DNA of 64,000 bases, from assembly GCA_951828585.1 (NCBI GenBank), contig OX639991.1, positions 1,272,576-1,336,575 on the forward strand, in the 5' to 3' direction. This document shows, in pieces, positions 28,911-37,537 of this stretch. Below the pieces are notes generated by a model. The model had not been told where the DNA came from. It did no database searches and worked only from the letters and a program-made list of their open reading frames with translations. The position numbers and the translations under genes were made by a program. The first letter of the stretch is position 1; the number at the start of each line of letters is the position of its first letter. Source of the DNA: Longimicrobiales bacterium (lineage in GTDB: Bacteria; Gemmatimonadota; Gemmatimonadetes; Longimicrobiales; Gaopeijiaceae).

Positions 28911-30002
28911 TCATCCCGCTCGCCGCCCGCTCCCAACCACCACCCCACCCAGCCACCGCTCCGGCGCCACCGCCCTCTCCCTCTCCCGGGGACGCCGGTT
29001 GAACCACGACACCGTCAGCAACACCTCCGCCGCCGCGTCCCCATCCAGTCGCCCATCACGATCCCCCGGCACCGGCTGAAACACCTCCTCCACCGCCTCA
29101 TTGGCGCGCCGCCGCGCCCGGCTGGACTTCGGCATGGGCAGGTCGGCGCACGGCCTGCCGCGGCGAATGAGGTAGATCCGGTCGTCGCCCTCATACCCGG
29201 GCACGGAGTAGACCAGGTTCAGGTTCTCCATCTGGCCGCGGAAACCGGAAAGGTGGCTCCACAGCTTCTCCAGCGTCTCCATGCGGTCACGGATGGTGGC
29301 TGCGTACTCGAAGCGCAACTCGGCGGCCGCCGCCGTCACGGAATCCTCCAACTCGGCCAGCGGCGCGCGGCTGCGGGCTTCGAGGAAGGCGCAGGCCAGC
29401 CGAAGGCGCCGGTTGTATTCCGCCGTGGTGCAGCGGCCGGCGCAGGGCGCGGGGCAGGTCCCCGTGTCGCCGCGGATGCACCGGGGCACCCTGCCGCCCG
29501 AGAAGATCTCCAGTTGGTCGCCGAAGTGGATCGGGGTGTGGGCGGGACAGTCACGCAGGCCGGTCGCCAGGGACAGGTCGTGCACCGCTTGCGTGAGCCA
29601 GCCGGTCTGCGCAAAGGGTCCGTAGTAGCTCGCGCCATCGTTGTGGACCCGCGATACGGGGACCAGTCGCGGCGCCGGCTCCCGCGTGATCTTGATGAAC
29701 CCGTACCGGCGGTCGCGCTTGTGCTGAACGTTGTACTCGGGTTGCCACGCGCGGATGAGGCGCATCTCGCGGATGAGCGCCGCGAATTCGTTCGGCCTCT
29801 GGTCCCAGTTGACGTCCTCCGCCTCGGCCACCATGCGGGCCGCCTTTCCCCTCTCTTCCCGGAAGTAGGAAAGAAGGCGCGACCTCAGCCTCACGGACTT
29901 GCCGACGTAGAGAATCCTCCCGCCGGCGCCGAGCCAGCGGTAGACGCCGGGGCGGTCCTCGGCCCGCGTACGGACCTTTTCGCGGAGGGGGGAAGGTGCC
30001 AT
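28911..30002 (-). CDS. UvrC-like GIY-YIG nuclease lacking the RNase H domain
   Basis: 363 residues. The GIY-YIG domain begins GVYRWLGAGGRILYVGKS at about 19 and has the expected ALIREMRLIRAWQPEYN helix. A four-Cys cluster (C-x17-C-type spacing around VPRCIRGDTGTCPAPCAGRC) resembles the iron-sulphur site of UvrC. A UVR-like helical segment follows. The protein stops where UvrC continues into its RNase H and helix-hairpin-helix domains, so it could make only the 3' incision. It resembles the UvrC half of DnaQ-UvrC fusions and Cho-type nucleases. The true uvrC is presumably elsewhere. Confidence 0.85.
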   Translation of the reverse strand: MAPSPLREKVRTRAEDRPGVYRWLGAGGRILYVGKSVRLRSRLLSYFREERGKAARMVAEAEDVNWDQRPNEFAALIREMRLIRAWQPEYNVQHKRDRRYGFIKITREPAPRLVPVSRVHNDGASYYGPFAQTGWLTQAVHDLSLATGLRDCPAHTPIHFGDQLEIFSGGRVPRCIRGDTGTCPAPCAGRCTTAEYNRRLRLACAFLEARSRAPLAELEDSVTAAAAELRFEYAATIRDRMETLEKLWSHLSGFRGQMENLNLVYSVPGYEGDDRIYLIRRGRPCADLPMPKSSRARRRANEAVEEVFQPVPGDRDGRLDGDAAAEVLLTVSWFNRRPRERERAVAPERWLGGVVVGSGRRAG

Positions 30003-33693: not shown

Positions 33694-35019
33694 GTGAATC
33701 GCGCCCGGCGTGTGATCTGGGTGCCCTCGCTCCTGGTGGGCGCCGCCGTCGCCACGGCCGTGGTGACCGGCGCCGGGGTGCTCCTCTACGACTCGCAGGG
33801 ACTGGCGCGGGAGATCATGAATCCGGAGCGGGAGGGTTCCCTGGTCGCCCTGCTGCTCGGCGACTCGGAGGGAGTCGTCCGGGCGGCCGCCGTGCTGATC
33901 GGAGTGGCCGTGCTGTCGCTGGCCGCGGGGCTCCGGATGGGGAGGGCCGGGGACGAGGACCCAGCCGTTCGCACGGCGGTGCGGTGGTGGGTGGGGTTCC
34001 TTGTGGCGCTCCTGGCTGGGTCGGGGTTCACCGGAGCGTGGGAGCTGATGGACGGTTTCGCCGCCACGTCGGTCACGCAGGGCCTGGGGCTGGCGGTTAC
34101 GGGTGCGCTTCCGGCGTACTTCGCGGGCGGGGTATGGGGACGTCTCGGGCGCTTCGCCGCTTCGCTAGGTGCCGGAAAGCAGGTCCTGATCGGAGCCGTG
34201 ACCGGGGTGGCGGGGGGGGCGGCGCTGGTCCTCATCCTTCTTGGGCGTCCGGTGCTGGCGGTTACGGCCTTCCTCGGCGCGGCGGTGTTCGCGTCCGGCG
34301 GAGCGCGCTGCCAGGGCTGGATCTTCGACCGCGTGCCGCGCCGCCGCGTCGCGCTGCACGAAACCACGAGGCCCGGGCTGCTCTTCGAGGCGTGGCACAC
34401 CGCGGTACCGGAGACCGAGGTGAAGGTCCTGTGGGACGGTGGACGGGTACGGATGGTCGATCCGCCCCCCACGGGAGACTGGCGACTCGGCGTGGCCGGC
34501 ACACTGGACGGAGCCGGTTCGGTGCTGTTCGTGGGTGCCGGGAGCTGGTTTGCACGGGAGGGAGAGGGCGGATGGCGGTTGCATGAGCCGGACGCCGACG
34601 TGCGGGCGTTGGTGAAGGAGGGCTTCGAGTGGCAATCGGAGTCGCTTGCGGGCTCTCCCGTGCCCGAGGGGCGGGGCCACGCGGTGGTCCTGGATTGGGA
34701 GACCGCGGGGCAGGGGCTGAGGGAGAGCCTTGCCGGTGGCGAGCTGCTGGCCGAGTTGCGTGAGGCCGGGACCGAGAGGGTGTGGGTGCGGGCGGAGCGG
34801 GGCCGTCTTCCCGGTAAGCTGGCCGAATCGGCGGCTGCGGCGGGGTTCGGGGTGGCGCGGTACGTGGCGGTGGCGCCCGCTGTCCAGGGGCCGCCCCGTT
34901 TGGCGCCCCGTGGGGACGAAGTCTGGTGTCTCGATCCGGGGGAGACGCCGCCTGGACCGGTCGCCGGGTTGAAGGTGCTGAACGAGGACGGCAGGCCGGT
35001 CGGCCAAGAGGACGTCTGA
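33694..35019 (+). CDS. Membrane protein heading SbcD/SbcC-like operon
   Basis: 441 residues from GTG 33694, which follows GAGGG at six bases. The first 200 residues contain five to six membrane helices (about 9-30, 50-75, 92-115, 125-145, 165-200). The last 240 residues are soluble, with repeated alpha/beta segments (GSVLFVGAGSWF, AVVLDWETAGQGL, TERVWVRAERGRLPG) of no family I recognise. The frame is open far upstream, so the start is uncertain. Its TGA overlaps the ATG of the phosphoesterase (TGATG). The coupling suggests that the SbcD/SbcC-like pair works at the membrane. Confidence 0.7.
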   Translation: MNRARRVIWVPSLLVGAAVATAVVTGAGVLLYDSQGLAREIMNPEREGSLVALLLGDSEGVVRAAAVLIGVAVLSLAAGLRMGRAGDEDPAVRTAVRWWVGFLVALLAGSGFTGAWELMDGFAATSVTQGLGLAVTGALPAYFAGGVWGRLGRFAASLGAGKQVLIGAVTGVAGGAALVLILLGRPVLAVTAFLGAAVFASGGARCQGWIFDRVPRRRVALHETTRPGLLFEAWHTAVPETEVKVLWDGGRVRMVDPPPTGDWRLGVAGTLDGAGSVLFVGAGSWFAREGEGGWRLHEPDADVRALVKEGFEWQSESLAGSPVPEGRGHAVVLDWETAGQGLRESLAGGELLAELREAGTERVWVRAERGRLPGKLAESAAAAGFGVARYVAVAPAVQGPPRLAPRGDEVWCLDPGETPPGPVAGLKVLNEDGRPVGQEDV

Positions 35020-36062
35020 TGAAGGTGGCCCACCTGTCGGATCTGCACCTGGGATATGCGGGGGCAGGGCCGGGGCGGGCGGGGGATGTGCTCCGGGCCT
35101 TCGAGAGAGCGCTGGCCCGCATCGCGGAGCTCGGTCCGGATCTGGTGGTCGTCGCGGGCGACGTGTTCGACCATCCCGAGGTGACCGCGTCGCCGATCGC
35201 CACCTTTTCCAGGGCGGTTCGCAAGCTGCGCGACAGCCTTCCCGAGGTGGTGGTAGCGGTAGCCGCCGGGGTCCGTGACATTCCCCTGGAGGCGGGCGCG
35301 CACGGGCCGCTCATGGTGATCGGCGCCCTGCCCGGCGTCGAGGTGGCCACGACGACGGTGCGGCGCGTCGGTCTGCAGGGTGGAAAGCTCTGCGTCACCC
35401 TACTTCCCCACCCCGCGGTCATGGCCTCCCGTTCGCTGAACGTCTCTCCCGACCCGGCTGCGAAGTGGAATGTACTGGTTGCCCACGCGGCGCTGGCGTC
35501 GGGGCGCTCACATGCGCCGGCCATCGCCCGCCGGGGCTGGGACTACGTCGCCCTGGGCTCCAGCCACGCCTACACGCCGGTGGCCGAGCGGGTCTGCTAC
35601 TGCGGTTCCCTGGAGCGGGTCGGCACCGACCCGTGGGAGGAATCGGCGATCGACAAGGGTTTCGTCACCGCCCAGCTCGAGTCGGGAGAGGTGACCTTCT
35701 GGCCGGTCGAGGCACGGGCCGCGGTGAGCCTGGCACCGATCGAGGCCACGGGAGGAGGCACGGCCACCGTGGCGCGCCGGCTGGGCGAAGCGCTGGCGGG
35801 CGTGCCGGGGGGGATCGACGGGAAGCTCCTTCGGGTTCCGGTGCGCGGCCTGTCCGCCGAGGATCTGGCCGCGCTCGACCGGGAGGTGCTGGCCGGGGTG
35901 CGCCGCCGGGTCGCCGAGCTGAGGGTGGATGCGCTTCCCGGGCAGGGCGCGTCGCATGGGTCGGGTGGGGCGGGGGCGTGGCGCGATGCGTCGGCCGCAG
36001 GTGAGAGGTCTTCCCGTGCCGGGGGGCGGGGGCGGGTGGGGCCGCGAGCGGTGGGCCGATGA
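35019..36062 (+). CDS. SbcD/Mre11-like metallophosphoesterase with degraded active site
   Basis: 347 residues. The fold is clearly calcineurin-like: Asp8-x-His10 in LSDLHLGY, Gly47-Asp48-x2-Asp51 in VVAGDVFDHPEV, His156 in VLVAHAAL, and His183. However the canonical GNHD box is GVRD (84-87) and the GHxH box is GSSH (180-183), so the metal-binding Asn, the catalytic His and another metal His are lost. It therefore probably lacks nuclease activity. The C-terminal 50 residues are Gly/Arg-rich. It overlaps the upstream membrane gene by one base and the downstream SbcC-like gene by four (ATGA at 36059). Confidence 0.8.
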   Translation: MKVAHLSDLHLGYAGAGPGRAGDVLRAFERALARIAELGPDLVVVAGDVFDHPEVTASPIATFSRAVRKLRDSLPEVVVAVAAGVRDIPLEAGAHGPLMVIGALPGVEVATTTVRRVGLQGGKLCVTLLPHPAVMASRSLNVSPDPAAKWNVLVAHAALASGRSHAPAIARRGWDYVALGSSHAYTPVAERVCYCGSLERVGTDPWEESAIDKGFVTAQLESGEVTFWPVEARAAVSLAPIEATGGGTATVARRLGEALAGVPGGIDGKLLRVPVRGLSAEDLAALDREVLAGVRRRVAELRVDALPGQGASHGSGGAGAWRDASAAGERSSRAGGRGRVGPRAVGR

Positions 36063-37537
36063 GGATTTCGTCGCTGCAGGCGGGGTCGCGCGGTCCGGTG
36101 CTGGACCTGCGCGACTCGCGCGGGCTGGTGGGCTTCGTGGGCGAGAGCGACCCGTTGTGGGATGAGTTCCTGCTGGGCCTCCGGACGGCCTTCGGCAGCA
36201 GGGGCGGTCACCGCGGTCCCGGGCCGGTGGTGGAGGGGGCGGAGGGGCCGGTCGTTGTCGGGACCGCTGCCTTCGAAGCGGAGCTGGAGGCCGTGCTGGC
36301 GGCGCACGGGCTGCGGCGCGAGGAGTACGGAGCGCTCTGGTTCGGCGATGGGCCCGCGAGGACCTGGCTGGCCGCGGCGGGAGCGTTGTTGCTGGGTCCG
36401 GCGGGGGCGGATGAGATGCGTGGGGGGGGTGGGGGGGGTGGGGATGGGTCGGCGGGTGGTCTGGCGGATGTGTGGGTGGCGCGCCTGGCGCGGGATGCAC
36501 GCGGCGAGGTGGAACGTCTGATGCGGTTGCAGGAAGAGGTGGGGGGACTGGAGGCGCGACTGAGCGAAGCACGCGAGGAGGCGGCAATCGCCCGTGGCGA
36601 CGCGGAAGCCGGCACGATGGCGTGGGTGCGCGAGCGCCAGGACGCCGAGACCCGCCTTCTGCTGTATCGCGACCGGGAACGTGAACTGCGCGGGCAGCTG
36701 ACGAGCACGGACGAGGCGGGGGAGGACGGTCCGTGCGGCAGGTGCGGCAGGGAGCTTGGAGATCGTGCCGGGCCGGTGGGGGAGGCGCTCAGGGAGGAGT
36801 GGGAGTCCGTGGTGCAGGACGGGCGCTGGTGGCGCCGCCGGAGGGACCAGCTCGAAGGCAAGCCCGACGACCTGCAGGGAAGCGAAAACCGGGCCATGGC
36901 GCTGGGGGCGGAGGCGGAGAGCCTGGCCGAAGAACTTGCCCGCCGGAAGGTGCAGGGGTTGGAGTTGGAGGCTGCGGCGCGGCGGCTGGATGGGCTGTTG
37001 GAACTGTCGGCGCGGTTGCGCGGGGGTGGTGGTGGCGGGGGGGAGGACCGGAAGGGAGCCGGCGCGGGCGGGGAGGAGAGGCGAGCCAGGTTGTTGTCGG
37101 AGACGCGCCGTCGCGTGAGGGCGCGGATTCACGGCAAGGTGGTGGCGCTGACCGGGGGACGGCTACTTGGGGCGTTTCCGGAGCTGTTCGCGGTGTGGGC
37201 GGGGGGTGAGGGGCGGGGTGGGGAGGACGTTGCCGTGCTCGAAGTGGCGGCGCGGATCGCCCTCGTCGAGCTGGCGGCGGACGCGGGAGCGAAACTGGAC
37301 TCGGTCATCTTCCCCGAGGGCCTCGACCGGTTGCACCGGGAGGACCGCGCCCGCGTGGTAGCGGCCCTGGCGCGCCTGGCGCGAAGCATACCGGTGGTGC
37401 TGGTCTGCGCGGCGCCACGCGTGGCGGCCGCTGTGCCCGAGTGCTTCGACTTCCTCTACCGGGTGAGGGGCGTGGCGGAGGGCGGCGGGATTCGCCGCCA
37501 GAGGTCAGGAATCGGGGCTGTCTGGCTCGGGGGGTAG
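36059..37537 (+). CDS. SbcC/Rad50-like coiled-coil protein lacking Walker A
   Basis: 492 residues, about half the length of SbcC. A central coiled coil (about 145-330) is broken at its apex by CGRCG (Cys226, Cys229), which mirrors the Rad50 zinc hook. The N-terminal strand-loop that should be GxxGxGKS reads GFVGESDPLWDEF, with no Lys or Ser/Thr. Near the C-terminus, LTGGRLL, WAGGEGRGGED and LDSVIFPEGLDRLHREDR correspond to pre-signature, signature and Walker B segments in order, but the catalytic DE pair is absent. Two glycine-rich insertions (122-128 and about 322-330) interrupt it. It is probably a structural partner of the pseudo-phosphoesterase. Confidence 0.72.
   Translation: MRISSLQAGSRGPVLDLRDSRGLVGFVGESDPLWDEFLLGLRTAFGSRGGHRGPGPVVEGAEGPVVVGTAAFEAELEAVLAAHGLRREEYGALWFGDGPARTWLAAAGALLLGPAGADEMRGGGGGGGDGSAGGLADVWVARLARDARGEVERLMRLQEEVGGLEARLSEAREEAAIARGDAEAGTMAWVRERQDAETRLLLYRDRERELRGQLTSTDEAGEDGPCGRCGRELGDRAGPVGEALREEWESVVQDGRWWRRRRDQLEGKPDDLQGSENRAMALGAEAESLAEELARRKVQGLELEAAARRLDGLLELSARLRGGGGGGGEDRKGAGAGGEERRARLLSETRRRVRARIHGKVVALTGGRLLGAFPELFAVWAGGEGRGGEDVAVLEVAARIALVELAADAGAKLDSVIFPEGLDRLHREDRARVVAALARLARSIPVVLVCAAPRVAAAVPECFDFLYRVRGVAEGGGIRRQRSGIGAVWLGG

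Follow-up and report, generated by a model that had tools for sequence, protein, structure and literature searches.

Few DNA-repair machines are as conserved as the Mre11-Rad50 (SbcCD) complex, which is held to work through ATP-driven engagement of its heads together with nuclease activity. The His of the GNHD motif is the general catalytic residue in Mre11-type nucleases; in the numbering of P. furiosus Mre11, D8, H10, D49 and H208 are the ligands of metal 1, and D49, N84, H173 and H206 those of metal 2. Here we describe a three-gene operon encoding a membrane protein (MEM), a Mre11/SbcD-type phosphoesterase (MPE) and a shortened Rad50/SbcC relative (HOOK). It lies in a 64,000-nucleotide stretch of DNA, hereafter the window (G000:C1:1272576-1336575), within a 4.47 Mb single-contig genome of the order Longimicrobiales. 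Across the loci of the window's GTDB family (f1; f2 and f3 are sister families in the same order), the layout of Mre11-Rad50 is kept and key catalytic motifs are replaced.

The f1 pair resembles Mre11-Rad50/SbcCD in gene order, in the Mre11 fold, in the head-coiled coil-hook layout and in its CxxC motif, with homology supported by profile, structure and synteny. Unlike that complex, it lacks the catalytic His, two metal-2 ligands, Walker A, the signature and Walker B, and it is often fused and usually coupled to a membrane protein. A calcineurin-type fold kept structurally after the loss of catalytic residues is also found in Vps29 and in the B-subunits of eukaryotic replicative polymerases, although these belong to another family, with other partners and in another process. 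Another bacterial pair of a phosphoesterase and an SbcC-like ATPase is YhaO-YhaN. The window genome has such a locus (L204, G000:C1:1347518-1348929; ∼12 kb beyond the end of the window), where a phosphoesterase match lies beside a YhaN-like ATPase that, unlike HOOK, has a Walker A motif (GPNESGKS) and no CxxC hook. Mimivirus R555 carries Mre11 and then Rad50 domains in one chain, the order seen in f1 fusions, but keeps Walker A and B and nearly all catalytic residues (PMC3175470); proteins of this type are sporadic and virus- or plasmid-associated, whereas f1 holds a vertically kept bacterial family. The same paper supports the Mre11 numbering of H173, H206 and H208 (PMC3175470); a literature search aimed at the metal-ligand numbering of Mre11 gave no match. 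No described system of this make-up was found in the open-access literature.

Catalytic motifs of the phosphoesterase and its Rad50-like partner

The initial annotation of this DNA had proposed three genes chained by stop/start overlaps, and this was borne out: MEM, MPE and HOOK are open reading frames (ORFs) on the same strand (start positions corrected from the first listing), joined by an ATGA whose A is common to the MEM stop and the MPE start and by a second ATGA overlap between MPE and HOOK (36059-36062).

33694..35019, + strand: gene 1 (MEM), membrane protein, 441 aa, GTG start (translation, AlphaFold2, Foldseek, hhalign)
35019..36062, + strand: gene 2 (MPE), Mre11/SbcD-type phosphoesterase, 347 aa, ATG start (profile matches)
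36059..37537, + strand: gene 3 (HOOK), mini-Rad50/SbcC whose head is a pseudo-ATPase, with CxxC between short coiled coils, 492 aa, ATG start

These ORFs are not chance frames, because they are conserved in the genus at a low ratio of nonsynonymous to synonymous substitution rates (dN/dS) and a profile built from fused relatives matches Mre11 and the Rad50 C-lobe. MPE matched Metallophos (34 bits; cutoff 21.5) and, below the curated cutoff of 77.65 bits, SbcD (TIGR00619; 41.9 bits), in both cases over the N-terminal 80 residues only. Its residues were scored in 68 f1 loci, 62 of which had a readable HOOK gene; in intact relatives, all tested ligand positions and H85 were kept (16 of 16).

35040..35048, + strand: motif I DLH, metal-1 ligands kept (D8 in 68 of 68 loci, H10 in 67 of 68)
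35160..35162, + strand: motif II Asp, D48 (D49 of P. furiosus), kept (66 of 68)
35271..35276, + strand: former GNHD, reading GVRD, with N84 replaced by V (N in 0 of 68) and H85 by R (H in 0 of 68)
35484..35486, + strand: motif IV His (H173 equivalent), kept in the window, variable in the family (48 of 68)
35559..35567, + strand: former GHxH, reading GSSH, with the first His (H206, metal 2) replaced by S (His in 6 of 68) and the second (H208, metal 1) kept (66 of 68)

In 65 of the 68 loci the residue that replaces H85 is Arg. The window MPE thus has V, R and S where an active Mre11 has parts of its full two-metal site and the catalytic H85. With the ligands assigned as above, one metal site retains its ligands and the other site, with the catalytic His, is gone. 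Both partners had been said to have lost their key catalytic motifs; the losses stand, but the metal-1 ligands are kept.

36140..36163, + strand: Walker A position, GESDPLWD replacing GPNGAGKS (alignment)
36554..36973, + strand: hook module and the helices beside it, where conservation is highest (WxRERQDAETxL...C..C...EEWExVVQDGxWWRRRxQLExKP)
36734..36745, + strand: CxxC zinc-hook motif, CGRC (CxxC in 62 of 62 loci)
37202..37228, + strand: ABC signature position (SGGEED in intact relatives), signature lost (alignment)
37304..37336, + strand: Walker B/D-loop position, VIFPEGLDRLH replacing LILDEVFGSLD (alignment)

HOOK is short (∼490 aa, versus ∼815 aa for intact Rad50), with a shortened coiled coil. 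It rose above no family threshold (best Rad50_Halo, 17 bits), and AAA_27, the family of the YhaN ATPase, gave no HOOK match in the profile search. Walker A was found in none of the 62 readable HOOK genes and a Walker B pattern in none of the f1 loci; CxxC is kept in every readable gene, a count that is partly by construction since the loci were found through CxxC. The loss of GNHD, GHxH and Walker A beside a retained CxxC, as first described, is thereby confirmed as GVRD, GSSH, GESDPLWD and CGRC. These sequences argue against ATP-dependent nuclease activity of MPE and HOOK, and the pair has presumably lost both its nuclease and its ATPase activity. Annotating the f1 genes as 'exonuclease SbcD/SbcC' would mislead.

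Fusion and predicted fold

In 34 loci (about half), MPE and HOOK form a single chain of 705-876 aa, a feature that the initial annotation missed. One fused chain (L123, 843 aa) was modelled with a predicted local distance difference test score (pLDDT) of 84.8 and a predicted template modelling score (pTM) of 0.70, and the model runs from a Mre11 domain through the head N-lobe, coiled coil, hook and second coiled coil to the head C-lobe. Searched with Foldseek, this model gave its top matches to structures of Mre11 and of Mre11-Rad50 complexes (best E 4e-14). At the sequence level, the fused relatives as a profile matched a solved Mre11 (E 1e-18) and the C-terminal lobe of Rad50 (E 4e-8), with a weak match to the structure of a Rad50 hook (E 0.04).

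Selection and descent of the operon

Pairwise dN/dS, estimated by the Nei-Gojobori method among close members of the window genus, was mostly 0.09-0.32 for MEM, MPE and HOOK, with one HOOK pair at 0.46. The lowest segments were residues 241-280 of MPE (0.06) and the hook flank of HOOK at residues 241-280 (0.11), and values were looser at linkers and termini. The three genes are under purifying selection, and because dN/dS is low, simple decay is excluded.

A scan for relatives returned 80 loci, nearly all from Gemmatimonadota and several from Longimicrobiales. A hook profile was present in 114 of 154 genomes of the order and in 239 of 298 genomes of the phylum sample, with its members outside the window's family mostly in frames of ∼800 aa or more. 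Within the window genus, every genome has MEM and almost every one has relatives of MPE and HOOK. The initial annotation had named, as support for a structural or sensing complex rather than a nuclease, a triad conserved in many genomes and lacking the same residues in each; such a triad was found, and the uniformity of the residue loss favours that reading.

Intact homologues also exist. In f2 and f3, MPE has GNHD and GHYH and its partner is a Rad50 of ∼800-830 aa with GPNGAGKST, SGGEED, LILDEVFGSLD and CPTC, and Gemmatimonadales examples have an intact pair with no MEM alongside. From this distribution, the intact pair is the phylum's ancestral form of Mre11-Rad50. In the tree, the disarmed forms make up one clade, split from the intact forms at 100/100 support. 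Downstream of the pair, f1, f2 and f3 share a DUF2723 gene in convergent orientation, and RsgA lies upstream in f1 and in one f3 locus; the change therefore happened in place, and the comparison shows that the operon descends from the phylum's own Mre11-Rad50 pair. The initial annotation had linked the existence of intact homologues to a decaying sbcCD. Such homologues were found, but decay fails as an account of a monophyletic clade that is under purifying selection and extends over an entire GTDB family. The disarmed pair is retained in small genomes as well, for example G133 (1.8 Mb) and G138 (2.0 Mb).

One f3 locus (L074, in G054) is an independent half-step: its Mre11-like protein has AGDRD and GHHP in place of GNHD and GHxH, and its Rad50-like partner has intact Walker A, Walker B and signature motifs.

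The membrane protein

The AlphaFold2 model of MEM (pLDDT 86.4, pTM 0.79) has six transmembrane (TM) helices (residues 9-213) and a Rossmann-like domain on the cytoplasmic side (residues 216-429).

33718..34332, + strand: six-helix membrane part, the portion retained in short variants (model and locus comparison)
34339..34980, + strand: degenerate spermidine-synthase-like domain, absent in at least 8 related loci (Foldseek, hhalign)

With Foldseek, the soluble part matched S-adenosylmethionine methyltransferases (E 5.5e-4) and the spermidine synthase 1inl (E 1.1e-3). The genes upstream of the pair in two f3 loci, L069 and L074, are TM-spermidine-synthase fusions that match NF037959 (fused MFS/spermidine synthase; cutoff 40 bits) at 104 and 110 bits. 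The window MEM gave no match to NF037959; unlike those fusions, its soluble domain has diverged, and in several loci it is deleted. An hhalign comparison joined the MEM of the window genus to other f1 MEM (E 1.9e-24) and the latter to f3 MEM (E 2.4e-9, with one misframed row, L070, in the f3 set). Searches with tblastn tie f1 MEM directly to L070 and L074, and the match of L187 to L070 (E 7e-10) is independent of the misframed row. MEM had been regarded as an addition to the pair, a view that we reject, as homologues already stand upstream of the intact pair in f3. In most f1 loci MEM ends within, or very close to, the start of MPE; in f3, the two genes stand hundreds of bases apart, and in L069 and L070 an ORF on the opposite strand lies between them. 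Only the TM part is present, the soluble domain having been lost, in at least 8 loci (L144, L146, L153, L171, L172, L176, L182 and L183).

The Pfam family 'Sensor' (PF13796) was rejected for MEM, whose score of 16.7 bits fell short of the 28.2-bit cutoff. In an f2 genome (G037), the gene upstream of the intact pair (L072, 6304-8010) encodes, in one frame, a TM domain and then a domain that by eye resembles a short-chain dehydrogenase, in the place otherwise taken by the spermidine-synthase-like one.

Proposed function and alternatives

We consider it fairly probable that the f1 pair is a non-catalytic scaffold or tether, dimerised by its zinc hook and probably held at the membrane. The pair would form a non-catalytic, ATP-independent complex in which two pseudo-Rad50 chains are joined via the hook and each head bears a pseudo-Mre11, often within the same chain. 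The six-helix MEM may dock this assembly to the membrane, and the pocket of one metal plus Arg could bind a phosphate group, be it of a DNA end, a nucleotide or a ligand, without cutting it. The whole would most likely serve as a static membrane tether or scaffold, which would fit the report that the Rad50 hook is a constitutive dimerisation module, swappable with the SMC hinge (PMC6969161). DNA is the likeliest cargo, although naming it is a guess that we regard as doubtful. We put forward only tentatively that Mre11-Rad50 was domesticated across the entire family as a non-enzymatic, membrane-anchored SMC-type tether, dimerised by the zinc hook and without an ATP cycle, gripping DNA ends or the nucleoid via the one-metal-plus-arginine pocket, and that it is the first pseudo-Mre11-Rad50 kept by selection.

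Several observations weigh against a membrane-bound, non-catalytic tether. No recognisable MEM lies beside the pair in 8 f1 loci (L138, L141, L148, L150, L151, L154, L168 and L174), all of which carry a fused MPE-HOOK. Conversely, two loci of the window genus, L106 (G009) and L108 (G011), have no recognisable MPE or HOOK; G009 retains the whole MEM gene and G011 its TM part only. Because of these ∼8 loci without MEM and the two genomes without the pair, the membrane link is common and not obligatory. The operon is also missing from some genera of f1; it is absent from genus g12 (G033, G059-G068), in which SbcD-type matches exceed the cutoff and the hook profile has no match. Finally, H173 and H206 persist in some f1 members, so weak phosphodiesterase activity is possible.

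The residue pattern of MPE could also be that of a re-tuned enzyme, in which one metal and the Arg act on a small substrate such as a cyclic nucleotide, a phospholipid headgroup or a nucleotide, and the hook dimer merely holds the enzyme at the membrane. The near-invariant metal-1 ligands (66-68 of 68) and the Arg in place of the catalytic His (65 of 68) resemble selection and not drift, and dN/dS is low throughout the MPE domain. However, N84 is lost in 68 of 68 loci and H206 in 62 of 68, H173 is variable, and the missing GNHD His is the general catalytic residue of such nucleases, so that we hold this explanation to be unlikely. A zinc, redox or metal sensor, in which CxxC pairing answers zinc or oxidation and MEM relays the signal, seems less probable still. 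The CxxC found in 62 of 62 genes, the six-helix membrane partner with its cytoplasmic domain and the precedent of RloC, a known zinc-responsive hook protein (PMC2610378), would suit such a sensor, but the operon has no output domain or regulator, the MEM soluble domain is lost in several loci, and the constitutive dimerisation reported for the Rad50 hook (PMC6969161) runs counter to it.

Two further explanations, which turn on a second SbcCD, are very improbable. The window genome does have a separate SbcCD (L205) whose GNHD, GHIH, Walker A and CPVC motifs are intact, and all sampled members of the window genus have an SbcD match over cutoff, which would agree with a redundant sbcCD slowly fading after another took over. 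This was already disfavoured by dN/dS values mostly of 0.1-0.3, by the uniformity of the residue changes and by frames that stay open family-wide, also in small genomes. Moreover, most other f1 genera have no SbcD match over cutoff yet retain the disarmed pair, and replacement by a separate SbcCD is therefore not a general explanation. The coexistence of both pairs in the window genus would equally suit a regulator or decoy that acts on active SbcCD through hetero-hook pairing, but in genera such as g4, g5, g6 and g7 the disarmed pair occurs without an SbcD match over cutoff, whereas g12 has SbcCD-type matches and no disarmed pair.

A lineage that keeps the architecture of Mre11-Rad50 under selection without ATP-driven head engagement or nuclease would part what the hook and the Mre11 dimer do structurally from catalysis. 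The f1 pair offers a natural test of the role of the hook alone, and the two-metal mechanism is probed by nature in the uniform loss of metal-2 ligands beside retained metal-1 ligands.

Neighbouring genes

The neighbours of the operon are housekeeping genes, namely a sigma factor, RsgA and an anthranilate-synthase-like gene. A defence system was considered and rejected, given these neighbours and weak PADLOC matches confined to the coiled coil; the best of them, to LmuB (Lamassu), was not significant (E 0.09 for the window protein and 0.004 for a fused relative). Elsewhere in the window, the N-terminus of the protein encoded at 28911-30002 (- strand) is, by eye only, UvrC/Cho-like and GIY-YIG-looking.

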